From IMG/VR virus record IMGVR_UViG_3300043137_000503, positions 1 to 31,523 of that record: DNA of 31,523 nucleotides, one strand, 5' to 3'. Positions 1 through 31,523 of this stretch are shown here, piece after piece. The notes beneath the pieces are model-generated. The model was not told where the DNA came from. It saw only the letters and a program-made list of their open reading frames with translations, and made no database searches. The translations under genes were made by a program, and so were the position numbers. Every line of letters begins with the position of its first letter. The stretch's first letter is position 1. Origin of the DNA: a virus.

Positions 1-127
1 CGGATGATGTTTAATGTTGTATGTTGAAGAGCAGTCAATTAATCTTGAAAACTGATTACATTGATGGAGATTTACCTCGATGCTAGAATCAAGGAGAAGA
101 GAGATTGACTTAAATAACAGGGGAGGG
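1..127. repeat. Left copy of 127-bp terminal direct repeat (circularisation overlap)
   Basis: These 127 bases are identical to 31397-31523 at the other end of the window. Both copies start CGGATGATG and end GGGGAGGG. The length equals a common maximum k-mer size of short-read assemblers, so the simplest reading is that the contig closes on itself and the true circle is about 31,396 bp. A genuine podovirus terminal repeat is possible but would only by chance be exactly 127 bp. Confidence 0.95.
7..27. repeat. Three tandem 7-bp iteron-like repeats
   Basis: Three consecutive heptamers ATGTTTA, ATGTTGT and ATGTTGA share the core ATGTT at a 7-bp period. They lie between the integrase and the RepL-like gene, across the circle junction, and occur again at 31403-31423 because of the terminal overlap. 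Short tandem repeats near an initiator gene are typical of iteron origins, but three short copies could arise by chance. Confidence 0.4.
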
Positions 128-535
128 GACGCAACTTAATGCAGCTCCCCTGACCTCTAAAGAGTTTTTCACAGTGCTCCCACACTGCTTCACTGATTTT
201 ACCCAACACGTGGTTCTACGAAGTATTCCAATAAGTCAATTGGTTCGTAGTTTCCCGTTTAGCCTAGTAGTTCGCCTTGCAAGTTTGCACCAGTGCGTTC
301 TTTGCTAGTAAGCCGATTCTCGAAAGAATCAAACTCTCAAATGTGAGAGCAAACGGTTAAAAAGGTCGATAGGCGTTAATCAATTCAAAGCCTCATCCAC
401 AATGTACTGGGCATCCGGGTCTGAAATCAACAAAAAAATGTTACTTTACGAAGATTTTAGTAAAGTACTTAGTTGGCTGGGTACTATGTACTAAGACCCA
501 AGAGAAATATCCTTCGCTCACGCTACGGATATTCA
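118..535 (+). other. Densely structured untranslated region: candidate replication origin or large non-coding RNA
   Basis: No credible gene lies here. Perfect hairpin stems seen: 118-125/145-152 (8 bp), 172-176/183-187 (5 bp), 216-222/244-250 (7 bp) enclosing 228-232/239-243 (5 bp), 315-319/326-330 (5 bp), 334-339/344-349 (6 bp), 442-449/460-467 (8 bp) and 506-512/527-533 (7 bp). DnaA-box-like sites are TTTTTCACA (165-173, fits TTWTNCACA) and TCATCCACA (393-401, one mismatch to TTATCCACA). The next gene encodes a RepL-like winged-helix protein. An origin with secondary structure or a large phage RNA both fit; the sequence alone does not decide. Confidence 0.5.
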
Positions 536-589
536 GGTTGGATACCGGGTAAATTTCAACTGTTTCTAAAGTAAAAAGTCAGTAATATC

Positions 590-615
590 AACAATTGTTC
601 CATGTACTATATAAT
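590..615 (+). promoter_or_regulatory. Candidate promoter with palindromic operator upstream of the RepL-like gene
   Basis: A perfect 10-bp palindrome AACAATTGTT (590-599) lies just upstream of a consensus -10 hexamer TATAAT (610-615). No good -35 hexamer is visible at the usual spacing, so the promoter may need an activator. It would give a leader of roughly 280 bases before the ATG at 901. The palindrome covers where a repressor could block RNA polymerase. Confidence 0.4.
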
Positions 616-900
616 AGACGATTAAGGACGCCTCTGATTACAGGCAGTTGTAAAACTCAAAACATTACAAATAATGCAAATTACCATTAAGAATAATGAT
701 GCCTATAACACATTAATTTTACTTAATTTTAAATATTTGTTTATTTATTGCAAAAAAGATATTGCTATCGGTATAGATGTCGTATATAATGATTATATCG
801 AAACTGAACTCCTGTTGATTCCGCTACCACTCTTCCTCCACTTCATTGACCAGTCATATTAGACAATGTGATTTCAATAATTAGTAATGGAGAATACATC

Positions 901-1353
901 ATGGCGCAGCGCATCAAATACGAGAAGTACGACGAAACAACTGGTGAAGTTTTATCTTACGGTGATAAGAAAGTTAAAAAGAAGGTTAAGTACAGCGGTG
1001 CTTACGGTACGATTTACTTCGATAAGGCAGCAGAGTTGTTTAAGGACATAAGACCTCTTGCAAAGACCCTTTTGCTGCTTATCTGTACTCAAGCTAGTCA
1101 TGACAGCCTCGATGTAAAGATACACCATAGAGAGCTTGCGGATAGTCTTGGTATTGATGCTAGAAACCTCAGCCCCTTTGTAAAAGAACTTGTTGCAGCA
1201 CAGGCAATACTTCCAACGAAGAAAAGCGGGACACTGTACTACTATAGAATCAATCCAAGCATTATCCGACATTACAAGACTGCGAAGTTCGAGCAAGCAG
1301 ACTTTGAGTGGAAAGTGCTTGTTTCAAAGAATTTAACAGCTTCCTCTGACTGA
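901..1353 (+). CDS. RepL-like winged-helix protein, putative replication initiator or regulator
   Basis: A 150-residue protein with no membrane segment. The N-terminus is strongly basic (many Lys at 23-30). Residues about 48-66 are hydrophobic helix, 77-99 look like a helix-turn-helix (RELADSLGIDARNLSPFVKEL), and 107-119 like a wing ending in YRINP. This wing pattern and spacing recall RepL-type plasmid initiators and related winged-helix DNA-binding proteins. The start at 901 is preferred over upstream GTG 868 because GGAG (888-891) is correctly spaced from it. A strong terminator follows at once, so it is a single-gene transcript. It follows the structured region 118-535, which suits an initiator acting on a nearby origin. 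A transcriptional regulator is the main alternative. Confidence 0.5.
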   Translation: MAQRIKYEKYDETTGEVLSYGDKKVKKKVKYSGAYGTIYFDKAAELFKDIRPLAKTLLLLICTQASHDSLDVKIHHRELADSLGIDARNLSPFVKELVAAQAILPTKKSGTLYYYRINPSIIRHYKTAKFEQADFEWKVLVSKNLTASSD

Positions 1354-1381
1354 CACCCTTGGGTGTTCTCCATAATCCACG

Positions 1382-1411
1382 CCCTCGGCCTTATCAGGCT
1401 GGGGGTTTTTT
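1382..1411 (+). terminator. Rho-independent terminator after the RepL-like gene
   Basis: A 10-bp stem (1382-1391 with 1396-1405, two G-U pairs), loop TATC, is followed directly by six T. It lies 28 bases after the stop codon and isolates the initiator-like gene from the operon downstream. Confidence 0.9.
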
Positions 1412-5950: not shown

Positions 5951-6424
5951 ATGACACTGAATCAAGAACGATTAAAAGAGATACTAGACCTTGATGTATC
6001 TGCTTCAGTCTTCACCAGAAAGACATCTGGAAATGGTTTCAATAAAGGAGATGTGGCAGGCTGTGTTAACAACAGAGGCTACGTTCACATTAGGATTGCT
6101 GGCAAAAAATACTTAGCACACCGCCTCGTTTGGCTCTGGGTTTATGGCGAATGGCCTAAAGGACAACTGGACCACCTGTCAGGCGATAAGCTCGATAATC
6201 GCATCTCAAATCTGAAAGATGTTACTTGTAGAGAAAACCAGCAGAATCAAAGCAGACATCGAAATGGGCGATTGGTGGGTTGCTATTTTCATAAACAAAC
6301 AAGCAAGTGGTGTGCTCGAATAAAAATTGAAGGAAGTATGAAGTACCTCGGACTTTATCCTACTGAACTAGAAGCCCATAACGCATACATGTCCGCTCTA
6401 AACCAATTTCAATTACAAGCATAA
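5951..6424 (+). CDS. Free-standing HNH homing endonuclease with AP2-type DNA-binding domain
   Basis: 157 residues. The HNH nuclease (about 33-100) carries H57 (AHRLVW), D74-H75 and N83/N87 (DNRISNL), all expected catalytic or metal-site residues. The C-terminal AP2-like domain (105-157) starts NGRLVGCYFHK and would bind DNA. Such genes cut alleles lacking them and spread by recombination. It lies in the late operon between terL and portal with no sign of an intron, since both neighbours are intact. It is clearly paralogous to the genes at 11736 and 26410. AAAGGA upstream supports the start, and AAGGAA after the stop serves the portal gene. Confidence 0.9.
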   Translation: MTLNQERLKEILDLDVSASVFTRKTSGNGFNKGDVAGCVNNRGYVHIRIAGKKYLAHRLVWLWVYGEWPKGQLDHLSGDKLDNRISNLKDVTCRENQQNQSRHRNGRLVGCYFHKQTSKWCARIKIEGSMKYLGLYPTELEAHNAYMSALNQFQLQA

Positions 6425-11061: not shown

Positions 11062-11607
11062 ATGTCATCTCTACAAATTGTAGTTAATGCCGAGGAAACT
11101 CAGGCTAAACTCATCCAAGACCTCGTAATAGACACAACCAAGACCAGAGAAGCAGCACTCGCTATCTCACAGTACTTTCGCAATGTAGCAACCGGTAACT
11201 CAACAGGCGTTATTGATGTTCACACTGGCTCAGCTGCACCCGTTGCTGCTTCAGGAACATTTACTCTCGTATCAGTTCCAGCAGATGACACTGTTGTAAT
11301 TGGTGGTGTGACCCTCACTGCAAAAGCTTCTCCATCAGGTGAGAACCAGTGGAGCCAAGCAGGAACAGACACAGTTGATGCTGCTGCTCTAGCTACCAAA
11401 ATCAATGCTCACTCAACACTCTCACAAGTCGTTACGGCCACCTCTGCTGCTGGAGTAGTTACGGTTACAGCCAAGGTCAAAGGAGTGATTGGCAATGTAA
11501 TCACTATAAGCGAGACAGGCTCATCAATTACCGCATCGGGCGCTGCTCTGTCAGGGGGCACAGGCGGAGCCACAGACTCTGCTACGACCTATACGCTCGG
11601 CCTCTAA
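11062..11607 (+). CDS. Putative capsid decoration (cement) or minor virion protein
   Basis: 181 residues, beta-rich, Thr/Ala/Val/Gly-rich, no signal peptide. A short helical N-terminus (1-55) precedes a domain (about 60-165) with the pattern TVVIGGVTLTAKA, AALATKINAH, GVVTVTAKVKGVIGNVITIS. This kind of domain recurs in phage structural proteins, and a similar segment appears in the nozzle protein of this phage (about residues 316-410). The slot right after the coat gene favours a decoration protein, though a tail component is possible. AAGGA upstream supports the ATG. Confidence 0.55.
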   Translation: MSSLQIVVNAEETQAKLIQDLVIDTTKTREAALAISQYFRNVATGNSTGVIDVHTGSAAPVAASGTFTLVSVPADDTVVIGGVTLTAKASPSGENQWSQAGTDTVDAAALATKINAHSTLSQVVTATSAAGVVTVTAKVKGVIGNVITISETGSSITASGAALSGGTGGATDSATTYTLGL

Positions 11608-11735
11608 TTCCTATCCAAATAATCAGTATCTATAAGGGCAATCTCGTTGCCCAGTAATAAGTAGAACCTCTGACTGGCGAAGAGTTGGATGGTTTCGCCA
11701 GCGTCTTAACTTAACAATCCAGTCAAAGGTTCATT
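11608..11735 (+). promoter_or_regulatory. Untranslated leader B with the repeated late motif and competing hairpins
   Basis: Shares CCAAATAATCAGTA (11615-11628) and GTTGCCCAGTAATAAGTAGA (11646-11665) with leader A, plus TCTGAC just after. A perfect 8-bp hairpin follows: 11674-11681/11694-11701 (CTGGCGAA/TTCGCCAG). TGACTGG (11671-11677) can instead pair with CCAGTCA (11719-11725), immediately upstream of the AAAGG ribosome-binding site of the HNH gene. The two pairings share bases and exclude each other. Confidence 0.5.
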
Positions 11736-12212
11736 ATGAATACACAATCCGATTTTAAAGAGATTTTAGATTATAACCCAGAGACTGTTGAGTTTACTTG
11801 GAAGAAAGCTTTAGGTACTAGAGCAAAAGCTGGTGATGTTGCTGGCCATGTTCATAAAGCTCAGGGTTATCATCAAATCAAGATTGCAGGAAAGCAATAC
11901 AAAACACATCGTCTAGTCTGGCTCTTCGAGACGGGAGAGTGGCCCAAAAACCACATCGACCATATGGACGGGAATCGACTTAACAACCACATCTCCAATT
12001 TGCGAGATGTGACGCAAAGAGAGAATAACCAGAATCTTGAATCTCATAGAAATGGTCGACTTGTAGGGTGCTACTTTTACAAGCCTCTTCAAAAGTGGAA
12101 AGCACAAATAAAAATCAACCGTAAAGCAAAGCACCTCGGCTACTTTCTAACAGAACTTCAAGCCCACCAAGCCTACCTCAAGGCATTAAACGAATTTCAA
12201 CTTCAAGCCTAA
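11736..12212 (+). CDS. Free-standing HNH homing endonuclease with AP2-type domain (second copy)
   Basis: 158 residues, paralogue of the gene at 5951: the same layout, ending in almost the same residues (LNEFQLQA against LNQFQLQA). HNH residues H58 (THRLVW), D75-H76 and N84/N88 are present, and the AP2-like domain (107-158) starts NGRLVGCYFYK. It sits between the decoration protein and tail fibre genes; its stop is ten bases before the fibre ATG, and AAGGAA there serves the fibre. It is the first gene after leader B, so its insertion may have separated the fibre gene from its original leader. Confidence 0.9.
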   Translation: MNTQSDFKEILDYNPETVEFTWKKALGTRAKAGDVAGHVHKAQGYHQIKIAGKQYKTHRLVWLFETGEWPKNHIDHMDGNRLNNHISNLRDVTQRENNQNLESHRNGRLVGCYFYKPLQKWKAQIKINRKAKHLGYFLTELQAHQAYLKALNEFQLQA

Positions 12213-26409: not shown

Positions 26410-26895
26410 CTATGCTGTGAGTGGATGATGTCCAAACCATTCGAAGTGAGTGTCTCTATAAGCGGTGTGCGCTTCTGATTCTGTTAAATAGAGACCGAGG
26501 GATACTTTTTCCCCATTGATACGGATTTCAGCATGCCACTTATTTTTCTGTTTATGATAGTAACATCCCACCAGACGGCCATTTCTGTGAGATTTCTGGT
26601 TCTGTTGGTTTTCCCTATTAGAGACATCTCGTAAATTTTCAATACGATTATCAAGTTTATCATTGTTAATGTGGTCTATCTGGCCTTTTGGCCAATCGCC
26701 AGTTTCAAATAGCCAGACCAGTCGATGTGCATAGTAGTTTCTACCTTTGATTCCAATGTAGTGGTAGCCTTTAACTTTATTAACACATCCAGCGATGTCC
26801 CCAACTTTGACGTTTTGACGAGGTTTCTTCCAAGTAAACTCTGCTGTCTCTCGACGGTAATTTAGTAACTCTTTAAATTCTTCTAAAGTTAACAT
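26410..26895 (-). CDS. HNH homing endonuclease with AP2-type domain (third full copy)
   Basis: 161 residues, paralogue of 5951 and 11736, here on the minus strand. HNH residues H57 (AHRLVW), D74-H75 (QIDH) and N83/N87 are intact; the AP2-like domain (105-148) begins NGRLVGCYYHK. The C-terminus differs from the other copies (EWFGHHPLTA instead of FQLQA). AAGGA eight bases upstream of the ATG at 26895 is a good RBS. It leads a leftward transcript from the perfect promoter at 26930-26958, followed 13 bases later by the lipoprotein gene, so homing could carry the lipoprotein along. Confidence 0.9.
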   Translation of the reverse strand: MLTLEEFKELLNYRRETAEFTWKKPRQNVKVGDIAGCVNKVKGYHYIGIKGRNYYAHRLVWLFETGDWPKGQIDHINNDKLDNRIENLRDVSNRENQQNQKSHRNGRLVGCYYHKQKNKWHAEIRINGEKVSLGLYLTESEAHTAYRDTHFEWFGHHPLTA

Positions 26896-27345: not shown

Positions 27346-27528
27346 ATGAATAACGAAAAATTGCAAGTTCCTGAAAAGGTTAACAAGAATATAGTGGTAC
27401 CGGTGGCGACTAGTACCCCTGAAGTCCAAAAAATTGTTGATTCGGGTGATAGACAGCAGTTGATTGAGTTCAATGTGAAGCGTATGGCTCCTCTATTAAA
27501 TTCATTGAGAGAATATGATAGTAAATGA
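27346..27528 (+). CDS. Putative antitoxin partner of the Doc toxin
   Basis: 60 residues from ATG 27346, chosen for AAGGAG (27333-27338). It is directly upstream of and overlaps (ATGA) the Doc-type toxin gene, the classic antitoxin-first order with coupling. A Val/Lys/Asn-rich N-terminus is followed by a helical C-terminal half (RQQLIEFNVKRMAPLLNSLREYD) that could fill the toxin groove. It does not obviously look like Phd (no visible MazE/AbrB- or YefM-type DNA-binding part), so it may be an unusual antitoxin or need the region's other regulator for DNA binding. Confidence 0.55.
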   Translation: MNNEKLQVPEKVNKNIVVPVATSTPEVQKIVDSGDRQQLIEFNVKRMAPLLNSLREYDSK

Positions 27529-27914
27529 TAAATTGGCTGTCAAAGCAGGAGATTATCAATATCCATTCAATGATTCTTGTCCCCGGCGAGCCTGATGGTT
27601 TTCTTAATGAAAGCAATTTAGACGCAAGTCTCTATTCCCTCCAGTATTATGAAAACGAGCCACTTGTAAATTTAGCGGGACTTTTGTTATGGAAATTGAC
27701 AAAAGGTCATATTTTTCAGCAAGGTAATAAACGCACTGCAGTTGCGTCGACTGTTTTATTCCTGAACCTAAATAATGTAGATGTTGCATACCAGTATTCA
27801 GGGTCAGAGGATGACCCGCTCTACCAGCTAACAATCAATATAGCCATGAATTCAATTGAAGATATTGAGGTTGGACAGCACTTAGTGCGTACGATTAACT
27901 TTACGTACGATTAA
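27525..27914 (+). CDS. Doc-type (Fic/Doc fold) toxin
   Basis: 129 residues, the Doc family size. Residues 62-72 are HIFQQGNKRTA, the Doc form of the Fic motif (HxFx[DNQ][AG]NKR), with the catalytic His62, Asn68 and Arg70 present. Doc of phage P1 phosphorylates EF-Tu and stops translation. The region around (NEPLVNLAGLLLWKLTKGH before, VASTVLFLNLNN after) follows the family helices. It overlaps the antitoxin-like gene and ends 70 bases before a convergent regulator gene. In P1 the phd-doc pair keeps the plasmid prophage in the population, so it may have the same role here. Confidence 0.85.
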   Translation: MINWLSKQEIINIHSMILVPGEPDGFLNESNLDASLYSLQYYENEPLVNLAGLLLWKLTKGHIFQQGNKRTAVASTVLFLNLNNVDVAYQYSGSEDDPLYQLTINIAMNSIEDIEVGQHLVRTINFTYD

Positions 27915-28440: not shown

Positions 28441-29340
28441 TTAATTGCTATCTGTAAGATTCACTACCGAGCAATTACTGGCAGGAATTGTGAATGTATC
28501 AACAGCTGGGTTAAATTCGACATCATTATAGGTGATGACTGGCACCAGGGTTGAGCGATTAAGGCTAACTTCCCAATAACCTCCGCCGTTTGCGCCTCTC
28601 AAATCAAAAGACACAGATACAAACCCGAACTTAGCACCTGCCTGGCCTGAACCGTAATTTACAGAGCTACTGATTCCCTGATAGGCATCTTGGATTACCG
28701 CTTGGACTAAAACGTCCCCCGCATTAGTAATTTGTGCCTGATATTCATAGTATATGCCAGTAGTTTCAATTTGACCGGAGCAACGATAGGTTTGAATAAT
28801 TCTGCCATAATCTTTGCATATGTATTTGGCGCTGCCAACATCATCCTCACCTGAATCTTTTTGTCCATTTCCATTAGTATCATTGAATTGAGTGACCTTA
28901 CTACCTCCGAAGATGCAATTTGCTCCAGATGCCTCTGCGGTTATTGCGACACCCCTGAACTGCGGCTTGAAGTTCGGAATTTGATGTGTTGCAGACCCAC
29001 ACGTGACCAATCCCGAATCGGAGACTGTGCAATCAGTGCCTTCTTTGCCATTTGTCCCATCTTTTCCTGCTATATCAACGGTATTCCAAGAACCAGCAGT
29101 GCAAGTTCTGAATTCTTTCTCTACCAATAAATAAGCCAAAGACCCTTCATTCGATTCGGAGCACTTTGGCAGCTTTTGAGCTGAAGCGAATGACATCGAG
29201 GTTGATTTATCGGGTTGTGTGGGGAGTGGAGGGGTTTCTATGGTCTTTTCATCTGAAGCAGGAGCCTTTGTGGAGGTCTCAGCGGAACCACAAGAGACCG
29301 TAAAAGCAGCTAGAATAGTTAGTGAAATAGACATCTTCAT
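28441..29340 (-). CDS. Large secreted lipoprotein (moron-like)
   Basis: 299 residues. Signal peptide MKMSISLTILAAFTVS ends at lipobox Cys17. A Ser/Thr/Pro linker follows (to about 50), then a short collagen-like run (GKDGTNGKEGTDC, about 93-105), paired Cys and a DTNGNGQKDSGEDD stretch (about 152-165) with a metal-binding look. The C-terminal half is beta-rich with a Gly/Tyr/Asn pattern (YQGISSSVNYGSGQAG). The mix resembles surface lipoproteins of Bdellovibrionota-like bacteria, hence a host-derived lysogenic-conversion gene is likely. AAGGAG upstream supports the ATG. It diverges from the second XRE gene, sharing its regulatory region. Confidence 0.7.
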   Translation of the reverse strand: MKMSISLTILAAFTVSCGSAETSTKAPASDEKTIETPPLPTQPDKSTSMSFASAQKLPKCSESNEGSLAYLLVEKEFRTCTAGSWNTVDIAGKDGTNGKEGTDCTVSDSGLVTCGSATHQIPNFKPQFRGVAITAEASGANCIFGGSKVTQFNDTNGNGQKDSGEDDVGSAKYICKDYGRIIQTYRCSGQIETTGIYYEYQAQITNAGDVLVQAVIQDAYQGISSSVNYGSGQAGAKFGFVSVSFDLRGANGGGYWEVSLNRSTLVPVITYNDVEFNPAVDTFTIPASNCSVVNLTDSN

Positions 29341-29478: not shown

Positions 29479-29760
29479 ATGAATCTGAAGACGATTGTGA
29501 GTCAAAATTTGAAGCGAATGCGCCTTGCAAAAAAGCTTACACAAAAGGAACTCGCCGAAAAGACAAAGCTAAGTATGCGGTTTGTCTCCAAGATGGAGAG
29601 TGACCCACAGAACCTGTCCCTCGACACTTTAGAGCTGTTAGCAAATGCTCTAGGTGTTTCTCAAAAAGAGATTTTTGCTGGCTGGATATCCACAGAGGAT
29701 TCCAAGGAAGATATCGCAATTCAACTTCATGCCCTCATCGATGCCCTGAAGAGTAAGTAA
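29479..29760 (+). CDS. XRE/Cro-CI family transcriptional regulator (second)
   Basis: 93 residues from ATG 29479, chosen for AGGAGG (29468-29473); an upstream TTG 29464 is in frame. XRE domain (about 4-68) with helix-turn-helix KLTQKELAEKTKLSMRFVSKMES and the family's following helix (LSLDTLELLANALGVSQKEIF). A short charged C-terminal helix may serve dimerisation. It faces the inverted repeat at 29392-29433, so it is likely autoregulatory and controls the large lipoprotein. Either this or the 27984 gene could be the lysogeny repressor; sequence does not settle it. Confidence 0.85.
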   Translation: MNLKTIVSQNLKRMRLAKKLTQKELAEKTKLSMRFVSKMESDPQNLSLDTLELLANALGVSQKEIFAGWISTEDSKEDIAIQLHALIDALKSK

Positions 29761-29864
29761 ACCTCCCTTAAAGACTTCAATTTAAAAACCGATTGCTTTT
29801 CTTAGTACTTCAGGTACTTTGTCGTTTGTTCAGTGGTGTAAAGTCCCTCCCGGCCCACCATTTT

Positions 29865-30031
29865 TGAACCCATTTTTGTTACCAATCAAGCTATAAACGC
29901 TTGATAAGATTGAACTCCTTAACAAGGAAATTAAATCCGGTGTCAGAGATGGGTTCATTTGTGAAAACCTGCAATTACAGTTAGTTGCAGAGAGGCCGAT
30001 AAATGGAGGTAACACCGAAAGGGAGCCTCCA
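29865..30031 (+). promoter_or_regulatory. Structured leader (or attP arm sites) upstream of integrase, with RBS-sequestering hairpin
   Basis: The 271-base gap 29761-30031 has no gene. Within it: a 9-bp outer stem TGAACCCAT (29865-29873) / ATGGGTTCA (29949-29957), enclosing hairpins 29885-29891/29899-29905 (7 bp) and 29916-29920/29924-29928 (5 bp), a three-way junction. Then an 8-bp stem 29969-29976/29983-29990, and finally TGGAGG (30004-30009) / CCTCCA (30026-30031) whose loop holds the integrase RBS (GGGAG, 30021-30025). The last stem would hide the start. Alternatively, the outer repeats are integrase-binding sites of attP. Confidence 0.5.
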
Positions 30032-31300
30032 ATGTATCTCGACACTCGGAAAAACAAAAAAGGTCAACTGCGCTTTCGTTTTACCTACCTCGACCATCTC
30101 GGTAACAGGTTACGTTATCCTGCTGCAGATACTCCTATCTTCAAGACCAGAGAAGAAGCTGAGAAATGGGCTAGGTCTCAGTCAGCTGCGATGGGGGCAA
30201 AGAAAGCGTTCATCGAGAAAAAGCTCGAATGGAAGACAAAGCACTATCAGTTCAACGAGCTGCTCACCAAATTTCAAGGTTGGCAAAAAGAACGGGCACC
30301 GAACAGTTGGAAAAACAATGTGCTCTATCTTGAGCAGTGGGTGCTTCACTGGTTCCTGAACATCAAGGGACTTAACAACGTCAATACCTGGCACCTGTAC
30401 TTTCATGAATTCTCAGACTGGCTTTCGACCAATGCGAATCAGTTGATACGAGGAAAGTCAAAACCGATTGCGGCAGGGACAATCAACAATATTCTGCGCA
30501 CAGTGAATGTCTTTCTCACTTTTCTGCAGAGCTACAACCTCATTGACCCAAGCTCTGTCCAAAAGACACCCGTTTTACCATCTCATAAGCTCGGAAGTAG
30601 GGGGTATAAAGACATCATCCTTGAGGAAGAACTGGAACTGATTTGCAAACGAATCGACTGCAGAACCACCGCTGAGTTCCTGACGGTGTTGTATAATACT
30701 GGCATGCGTTTCAATGAGCTATTCGGATTGCCTATGAATGCGTTGTTTAAAGGTGAAGTGAGTAGTGAGTCTCTTAAAAAAGAACTGGAGCGGTGCAACA
30801 TCTCATATTTCGGATATCTACTACTTGATTCACAACCAGCGGATGAAAATAGACATAGAGAAGCTGATGGTACAATCAAAAGAAAACCCTTGAAGAGTCA
30901 TAAGGTAATAAGCCCAAAGAACAGTCGCATCATCCCAATCCGTACCAAAGAAGTTTGGAACATCCTTGCCACTCGGTATCTGACCCAGAGTAAACTTCAT
31001 GCTGAGGGTAAGTTTGGGAAGGACCGCACCGACTACATGCTATTTGATGAGTTGAACTACAATCAGGCATACATCAAGCTAAGAGAAGCATACAAAGATA
31101 CGAAGTTTGCGCCAAAAGCCTTTCATGCTTGCAGACATACCTTTGTCACTCGATTGGTGGGTGAAACTAAAAGTTTCTTTCTTACGAGGATGATTACTGG
31201 GCACAGAAAAGATACGAGCTTTGAGCGGTATCTTCACATCTATGAGCAAATTGCGACAGAAGCGAAGGCGTCTGAACAAGAGATTGATTTGGTGGTTTAA
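30032..31300 (+). CDS. int: Tyrosine recombinase / phage integrase
   Basis: 422 residues. An N-terminal arm-binding-like part (1-55, GQLRFRFTYLDHLGNRLRYP) and a core-binding SAM-like domain (about 70-180) precede the catalytic domain (about 190-415). Catalytic residues by pattern: Arg in YNTGMRFNEL, a beta-hairpin Lys around SHKVISPKNSRIIPI, HxxR in HACRHTF, His in TGHRK, and the Tyr nucleophile in RYLH near the C-terminus. It integrates the phage circle at an attachment site and excises it with help from a factor not seen here. GGGAG supports the ATG, within a hairpin loop. Downstream sequence (31301-31396 and 1-) is the untranslated origin-like region. Confidence 0.92.
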   Translation: MYLDTRKNKKGQLRFRFTYLDHLGNRLRYPAADTPIFKTREEAEKWARSQSAAMGAKKAFIEKKLEWKTKHYQFNELLTKFQGWQKERAPNSWKNNVLYLEQWVLHWFLNIKGLNNVNTWHLYFHEFSDWLSTNANQLIRGKSKPIAAGTINNILRTVNVFLTFLQSYNLIDPSSVQKTPVLPSHKLGSRGYKDIILEEELELICKRIDCRTTAEFLTVLYNTGMRFNELFGLPMNALFKGEVSSESLKKELERCNISYFGYLLLDSQPADENRHREADGTIKRKPLKSHKVISPKNSRIIPIRTKEVWNILATRYLTQSKLHAEGKFGKDRTDYMLFDELNYNQAYIKLREAYKDTKFAPKAFHACRHTFVTRLVGETKSFFLTRMITGHRKDTSFERYLHIYEQIATEAKASEQEIDLVV

Positions 31301-31396
31301 TTGGTTGTGCGTTGTAGCTAGGGACTTAATCATTCAACCTTGCGCTTATTAGAAAGCAAATTTCCCTCATCATGACTTGGACATCAGGAGCGATAG
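31301..31396. other. Untranslated end of the unique sequence
   Basis: Between the integrase stop and the repeated end I see no gene and no clear terminator. Short complementary segments (GGTTG near 31303, CAACC near 31336) could pair. Because the molecule is circular this stretch joins base 1, so the whole gap from integrase to the RepL-like gene is about 1 kb. Confidence 0.5.
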
Positions 31397-31523
31397 CGGA
31401 TGATGTTTAATGTTGTATGTTGAAGAGCAGTCAATTAATCTTGAAAACTGATTACATTGATGGAGATTTACCTCGATGCTAGAATCAAGGAGAAGAGAGA
31501 TTGACTTAAATAACAGGGGAGGG
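31397..31523. repeat. Right copy of 127-bp terminal direct repeat
   Basis: Exact second copy of bases 1-127. The sequence upstream of this copy (31301-31396) is therefore the true left neighbour of position 1, which places the integrase 3' end directly beside the untranslated, origin-like region. Confidence 0.95.

Follow-up and report, generated by a model that had tools for sequence, protein, structure and literature searches.

The window analyzed here, a stretch of viral DNA of 31,523 nucleotides (IMG/VR record IMGVR_UViG_3300043137_000503), opens with a long gene-free stretch in front of a gene for a presumed replication initiator, which raises the question of what this noncoding DNA does for the phage. 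The preliminary description had proposed a replication origin or a large structured RNA. The terminal 127 bp of the window are identical at both ends (1–127 = 31397–31523), and a longer overlap is absent. Because this terminal repeat is exact, the contig was treated as circular, with a length of 31,396 bp. The repeat had not been noticed before, and the noncoding stretch therefore continues as 31301–31396. In the circle, the gene-free stretch spans the 996 bp between the stop codon of the integrase gene (31300) and the start codon of the presumed initiator gene (901) and is the largest of the 14 intergenic gaps longer than 60 bp. A decayed gene was also considered and rejected, as the longest open frames are short and the sole ORF (674–862) has no Pfam match. 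The elements that frame the stretch are the following.

30032–31300, plus strand: tyrosine integrase bordering the stretch (PF00589, phrog_1)
31301–31396, unstranded: opening 96 bp of the circular intergenic stretch, abutting the integrase stop codon and joining position 1
901–1353, plus strand: 150-aa RepL-like winged-helix protein, the presumed replication initiator (RepL profile match and predicted fold)
1381–1406, plus strand: intrinsic-terminator-like hairpin 3′ of the RepL-like gene (sequence pattern)

The window carries a tailed-phage gene set that includes terminase, SU10-type capsid and adaptor proteins, HNH genes, and the tyrosine integrase, together with a P22-like portal (below the Pfam cut-off), two cI/Cro-like regulators, and a Doc-family gene. 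A Pfam scan of 37 ORFs recognized no polymerase, primase, helicase, or partition family. The Doc-family gene (27346–27914, plus strand; TIGR01550, E = 2.4e-12, above the cut-off) overlaps a 60-aa ORF upstream, with which it likely forms an addiction module of a kind typical of plasmid-like prophages. Phage P1 carries Phd-Doc, and the window likewise has a Doc-type addiction gene. Three HNH_3 endonuclease genes (5951–6424, 11736–12212, and 26410–26895 (−)) are probably selfish insertions. Between the two regulators lies a lipoprotein-like gene (28441–29340, minus strand) that contains a collagen-like stretch and matches DUF7151; it is a possible lysogenic conversion gene.

Relatives of this phage were found through its structural genes. 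A search with a portal alignment detected 247 related loci in viral contigs, the best 80 of which were retrieved. The nearest relative among these 80, G001, shares 65% identity in the portal and 79% in the major capsid protein. G001 has no RepL-like gene, integrase, or noncoding stretch of this kind, and other genes occupy the place where replication functions are expected. The noncoding stretch itself has no homologue in phages or plasmids by blastn, where E values up to 10 gave short chance matches; G001 yielded a single 14-base match and no homologue, and nothing credible appeared in the loci of related records. Relatives of the integrase were found neither in viral contigs, phages, and plasmids nor in two genomes and 398 genomes of one phylum, and a search with the protein encoded at 1667–2224 returned none. 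As single queries, the terminase found no relatives in viral contigs and the portal none in genome contigs. The Cro-like protein found eight loci, none of which has another window gene in common. A further observation concerns GATC, of which the circle has not a single copy (about 103 expected); CGCG does not occur either (25 expected). Silvanigrella phage CP017838.1 likewise lacks GATC (72 expected; the record is partly N), but the GATC count of G001 is normal (143 versus 155 expected). The absence in both the window and CP017838.1 hints at a common host group with GATC restriction.

The product of 901–1353 had been called RepL-like. This holds at the level of a remote, colinear profile match, whereas the Pfam model of RepL does not match the protein. 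For comparison, we aligned ten proteins that are RepL or RepL-like, from pNE131 and nine further plasmid or phage records. By hhalign, this RepL profile aligned with the product over 114 colinear columns (probability 76, E = 2.3e-5), and the shared features are an N-terminal D-x-x-TGE motif, the winged helix (helix-turn-helix), and an INP motif. An HMM built from the same alignment gave the protein 14.5 bits, the top score of 32 window proteins; the next window protein, an HTH regulator, reached 7.7 bits, and the best of 500 self-shuffles reached 5.8. However, PF05732 gave no match even at E values up to 10, no PHROG was assigned, all HTH matches were below threshold, and P1 RepL did not align. 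No close relatives were found in viral contigs, phages, plasmids, or 40 related records. The structure model, predicted from the single sequence, has a mean pLDDT of 58 and is best defined at residues 51–120. With this low-confidence model, the first PDB matches by Foldseek are plasmid Rep winged helices (E = 2e-3), and the BFVD matches include RepL and replication initiators. When the matches of the same low-confidence model are ordered by Z score, regulators lead, with an archaeal DNA-binding riboflavin kinase at 10.3 and CRP at about 9, followed by the initiators 4pt7, 1hkq, and 5kbj at 8.9, 8.5, and 8.3, which align over longer spans of 82 to 93 residues. The protein thus appears RepL-like at a remote level only and would not be counted as a member of the RepL family.

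The DNA upstream of this gene had been described as dense in hairpins, which proved real. Perfect stems with loops of 3 to 20 nt were counted in region 1–670, in 300 shuffles, and in 47 windows of 670 nt. The region contains 21 stems of at least 5 bp, 9 of at least 6 bp, 3 of at least 7 bp, and 2 of at least 8 bp, compared with shuffle means of 11.6, 3.0, 0.7, and 0.2; these counts were reached by 3, 0, 7, and 5 of the 300 shuffles, respectively. Two of the nine stems of at least 6 bp are alternatives that overlap others (118–152/124–151 and 298–328/315–330). Region 1–670 ranks first of the 47 windows for stems of at least 5, 6, and 7 bp. The excess is absent from four control gaps of the genome (1354–1666, 2786–3120, 9496–9743, and 26000–26234). 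The principal hairpins and inverted repeats are listed here.

118–152, unstranded: 8-bp perfect hairpin stem CAGGGGAG/CTCCCCTG with a 19-nt loop (from the hairpin count)
315–330, unstranded: 6-bp perfect hairpin GATTCT/AGAATC (from the hairpin count)
334–349, unstranded: 6-bp perfect hairpin CTCTCA/TGAGAG (from the hairpin count)
442–467, unstranded: inverted repeat with 10-bp arms (one mismatch) and a 6-bp spacer, also an 8-bp perfect hairpin
464–492, unstranded: second inverted repeat with 10-bp arms (one mismatch) and a 9-bp spacer, adjoining 442–467
506–533, minus strand: 7-bp hairpin with TAGCGT in the minus-strand loop (CS-6 hexamer of plasmid single-strand origins)

Folding energies agree mildly with the hairpin excess. 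As a whole, region 1–670 folds with z = −2.5 on the plus strand and −2.8 on the minus strand (20 shuffles). Among 57 windows of 560 nt (16 shuffles), the region ranks fourth on the plus strand (z = −2.5) and first on the minus strand (z = −3.6), and the 160-nt windows within it average z = −1.25 (plus) and −1.5 (minus), compared with about −0.1 for the genome. Two structured places elsewhere in the genome were also noted. The 277-nt leader before the integrase start at 30032 (29755–30031, plus strand) folds with −84.4 kcal/mol (z = −5.5, 200 shuffles), contains the 160-nt window with the strongest structure genome-wide, and has no Rfam match; its 5′ CCTCCCTT pairs with the AAGGGAG that precedes the integrase start, a pairing that suggests regulation of integrase at the level of translation. 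In addition, a strong hairpin cluster at 11601–11740 (160-nt window z = −4.8, plus strand) lies 3′ of the gene at 11062–11607 and is probably a terminator or a repeat.

Between the hairpins and the RepL-like gene lies a segment of very low stability, flanked by two promoter-like sites.

588–615, plus strand: promoter-like site TCAACA-16-TATAAT (10-of-12 match)
663–698, plus strand: repeats CATTACAAATAATG (663–676) and CATTAAGAATAATG (685–698) at 22-bp spacing, at the left edge of the AT-rich segment
664–763, unstranded: AT-rich segment (83% AT), candidate DNA unwinding element and the least stable 100 bp of the genome
762–790, plus strand: promoter-like site TTGCTA-17-TATAAT, located some 110 bp upstream of the initiator gene (pattern match)

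On a 50-bp scale, the lowest stability of the genome (714–763, 90% AT) is reached in this segment too. Iteron/DnaA theta origins are expected to have an AT-rich unwinding element, and the global stability minimum of the window does fall within 664–763. The pair of 14-bp repeats at its edge may serve as initiator or repressor sites. The palindrome and TATAAT reported earlier at 590–615 are present and coincide with the promoter-like match at 588–615. Further promoter-like sites lie on the minus strand at 754–726.

The shorter signals on which the preliminary description had drawn for an origin carry less weight.

7–27, plus strand: three tandem ATGTTxx heptamers (weak evidence)
165–173, plus strand: DnaA-box-like TTTTTCACA (TTWTNCACA, no mismatches; chance level)
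393–401, plus strand: DnaA-box-like TCATCCACA (one mismatch; chance level)

Both DnaA boxes are where they had been placed, but two in the region do not exceed chance. TTWTNCACA occurs three times in the genome and TTATCCACA, allowing up to one mismatch, eight times, at scattered positions, and a further DnaA-like box lies outside the region at 1539–1547. The heptamers (ATGTTTA, ATGTTGT, and ATGTTGA, starting at 7, 14, and 21) also exist as described and do not exceed chance; the triplet is the sole period-7 case in the genome, in which triple 5-mers at periods of 6 to 25 occur eight times. An iteron array was rejected, as the 24 repeated 9-mers of the region compare with 11 to 53 in 18 windows covering the genome. 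GC skew was dropped as an origin sign. Its cumulative curve has turning points at about 2 and 20.5 kb, whose sign is not the one expected if the origin lies close to 1 kb, and a coding-strand third-position bias similar to that of the window is also present in the structural genes of G001. The only perfect TTATCCACA of the genome (20107–20115, minus strand) lies inside a coding gene near the cumulative GC-skew minimum.

The hexamer in the hairpin at 506–533 was examined in the same way. TAGCGT is the CS-6 hexamer of plasmid single-strand origins, according to PMC4598088, and single-strand origins of the ssoA/palA type resemble the window in having a row of hairpins with this hexamer in one loop. 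The genome has 24 hairpins with stems of 7 bp or longer, and this is the only one with TAGCGT or TAGCGA in its loop, compared with 3 of 2293 hairpins in other viral loci, a frequency tested after the motif had been seen. The ssoA/palA-type origins also have an RSB sequence, which is missing from the window; the best match to the RSB of ssoA in the region has 5 mismatches of 17 and is one of six such matches in the genome, whereas the pNE131 match has 3 mismatches. A scan of viral contigs for the 506–533 hairpin found none. Because the motif was tested post hoc and its companion RSB is missing, the CS-6 hexamer is only a hint of a single-strand origin.

The arrangement as a whole was compared with five minimal RepL plasmids by testing the noncoding remainder of each circle like the stretch of the window, with 100 shuffles. 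The noncoding lengths are 802 to 1026 bp in the plasmids, counting as noncoding a part of Sau1491 that contains an annotated 189-bp ORF, and 996 bp in the window. The plasmids contain 22, 9, 10, 20, and 13 stems of 6 bp or more, where shuffles average 8.1, 4.0, 5.0, 4.2, and 6.0, and the observed counts are attained in 0, 2, 1, 0, and 0 of 100 shuffles; the five are not independent cases, because two of them, both staphylococcal, have a common hairpin sequence. The 996-bp stretch has 12 such stems against 4.8 in shuffles, and none of 100 shuffles reaches this count. The AT-richest 100 bp begins 118 to 257 bp before repL in the five plasmids and lies 237 to 137 bp before the gene in the window. 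By folding energy, the window is weaker, with z = −2.7 compared with −6.8 to −13.8 in the plasmids (12 shuffles). The window therefore has the layout of a RepL minimal replicon as we defined it in this analysis rather than by a published definition, namely a hairpin-rich noncoding stretch of 0.8 to 1.0 kb, an AT-rich 100 bp, and the gene. In further stretches upstream of RepL genes, a stem excess was present in L106, pNE131, and L119, whose counts are attained in 0, 7, and 1 of 200 shuffles, and unclear in L107 and phage HS1 (42 and 46 of 200). Phages P1 and HS1 have no large noncoding stretch directly before repL. The layout was compared here among RepL replicons alone and may be common to small replicons.

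The closest known systems are instructive in both likeness and difference. Plasmids of the pSN2 family with a PF05732 RepL, such as Campylobacter concisus pSma2 and Selenomonas pSRD77, share the layout and the colinear initiator. In contrast, the window protein stays below the Pfam RepL model, the hairpins are weaker, the ssoA RSB is missing, and the replicon would sit in a 31-kb phage with an integrase. According to PMC5703833, the pSN2 family is regarded as rolling-circle, has recognized dso and ssoA elements, and is less studied than other families. Phage P1 resembles the window in having an initiator called RepL with DnaA-box-like sites nearby. However, P1 RepL initiates theta replication at oriL, which most likely lies within repL (annotation and PMC9948254), whereas the AT-rich element of the window lies upstream of a gene that is not itself AT-rich.

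Taken together, we lean toward reading 31301–31396 and 1–900 as the DNA that acts in cis for a small RepL-type replicon of a temperate phage, with an attP probably within it. The origin half of the preliminary description is backed by context, since a RepL-like initiator adjoins the least stable DNA of the genome, no other replication gene is recognized, and the layout is that of RepL plasmids; the DnaA boxes and heptamers first named as its signs are weak. In the model that we infer from this arrangement, with binding, melting, priming, and attP as its parts, the RepL-like protein would be expressed from the promoter at about 762–790, bind beside the AT-rich element (664–763), and open the DNA there. 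The remaining replication steps would fall to the host replisome, as the phage has no recognizable polymerase, primase, or helicase. The hairpins at 118–533, when single-stranded, may act as priming or processing sites in the manner of small-plasmid single-strand origins, and the integrase-side end probably also holds the attP.

The attachment site may be given a larger role. We consider it rather unlikely that about 31301–560 is mainly an attP, with cores at 442–467 and 464–492 accompanied by arm-type sites and sites for accessory proteins, that 660–900 is a regulator promoter, and that the winged-helix gene encodes the regulator. The integrase stop codon does border the stretch, as in phage lambda, where attP lies beside the 3′ end of int, and the presence of a tyrosine integrase and repressor genes means that the phage should have an attP; as the integrase gene is adjacent, this site likely lies within the stretch. 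By its shape, 442–467 is a candidate tyrosine-recombinase core site (attP core) or a single-strand hairpin. Nowhere in the genome apart from this site and the adjoining 464–492 are 10-bp inverted arms with no more than one mismatch and a spacer of 5 to 9 present, and two or more such sites occurred in 7 of 300 shuffles of the stretch. When two mismatches are allowed, however, 10-bp-arm sites are not in excess (3 versus 2.2). A search for an attB remnant of the tRNA type found nothing resembling a tRNA T arm beyond one 1-mismatch match at 536. The CRP-kind transcription regulators that lead the structural matches by Z would suit a regulator, but the RepL profile match speaks against a plain one, and this reading leaves the phage without any initiator.

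An RNA function appears improbable. The stretch could encode a large structured RNA, for instance an ornate phage RNA or a minus-strand transcript that runs from about position 720 to 1 and primes or regulates replication. The minus strand does contain the best-folding 560-nt window of the 57, and the promoter-like sites at 754–726 are suitably placed. RNA-based origins also have a precedent in extrachromosomal mycobacterial prophages, where they were defined by deletions of about 400 to 500 nt, according to PMC7157519. The origins of Alma, LadyBird, and RedRock resemble the stretch in being gene-free DNA of a few hundred base pairs that might drive replication of a prophage; these phages, as described in PMC7157519, encode no Rep protein and have parABS instead of an integrase, whereas the window has an initiator-like gene and an integrase and no recognized partition gene. 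Moreover, the RNA-family search that had been proposed did not favor the RNA half of the preliminary description, as Rfam gave no match at gathering scores (GOLLD, ROOL, OLE, and others) and nothing credible at a relaxed threshold, where matches were far below those scores. Both strands fold alike, as DNA palindromes would, and the 160-nt windows average only −1.25 and −1.5 where the integrase leader of the same genome reaches −5.5.

Ordinary noncoding DNA, with terminators, promoters, and chance palindromes between two modules, would fit the DnaA boxes, heptamers, and direct repeats, none of which exceeds chance, but this is highly improbable given a hairpin count that ranks first of 47 windows, is reached by none of 300 shuffles, and has no counterpart in the four other intergenic gaps.

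If the phage relies on a RepL replicon, as we lean toward, the contrast with G001 would show a change of lifestyle by exchange of the replication module. A bolder version, to which we give little credence, is a self-sufficient plasmid-style replicon in which the hairpins, the attP, and the RepL-like initiator are fused as a single cis element, or an undescribed structured RNA made from the stretch that sets how often a RepL-like protein initiates. If the fused replicon were true, integration and autonomous replication would be controlled from one stretch. In staphylococci, RepL replicons belong to the smallest plasmids of the rolling-circle type, and little work has addressed how they replicate and control copy number (PMC5703833). 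The window offers a compact system for testing the role of hairpins in RepL origins.
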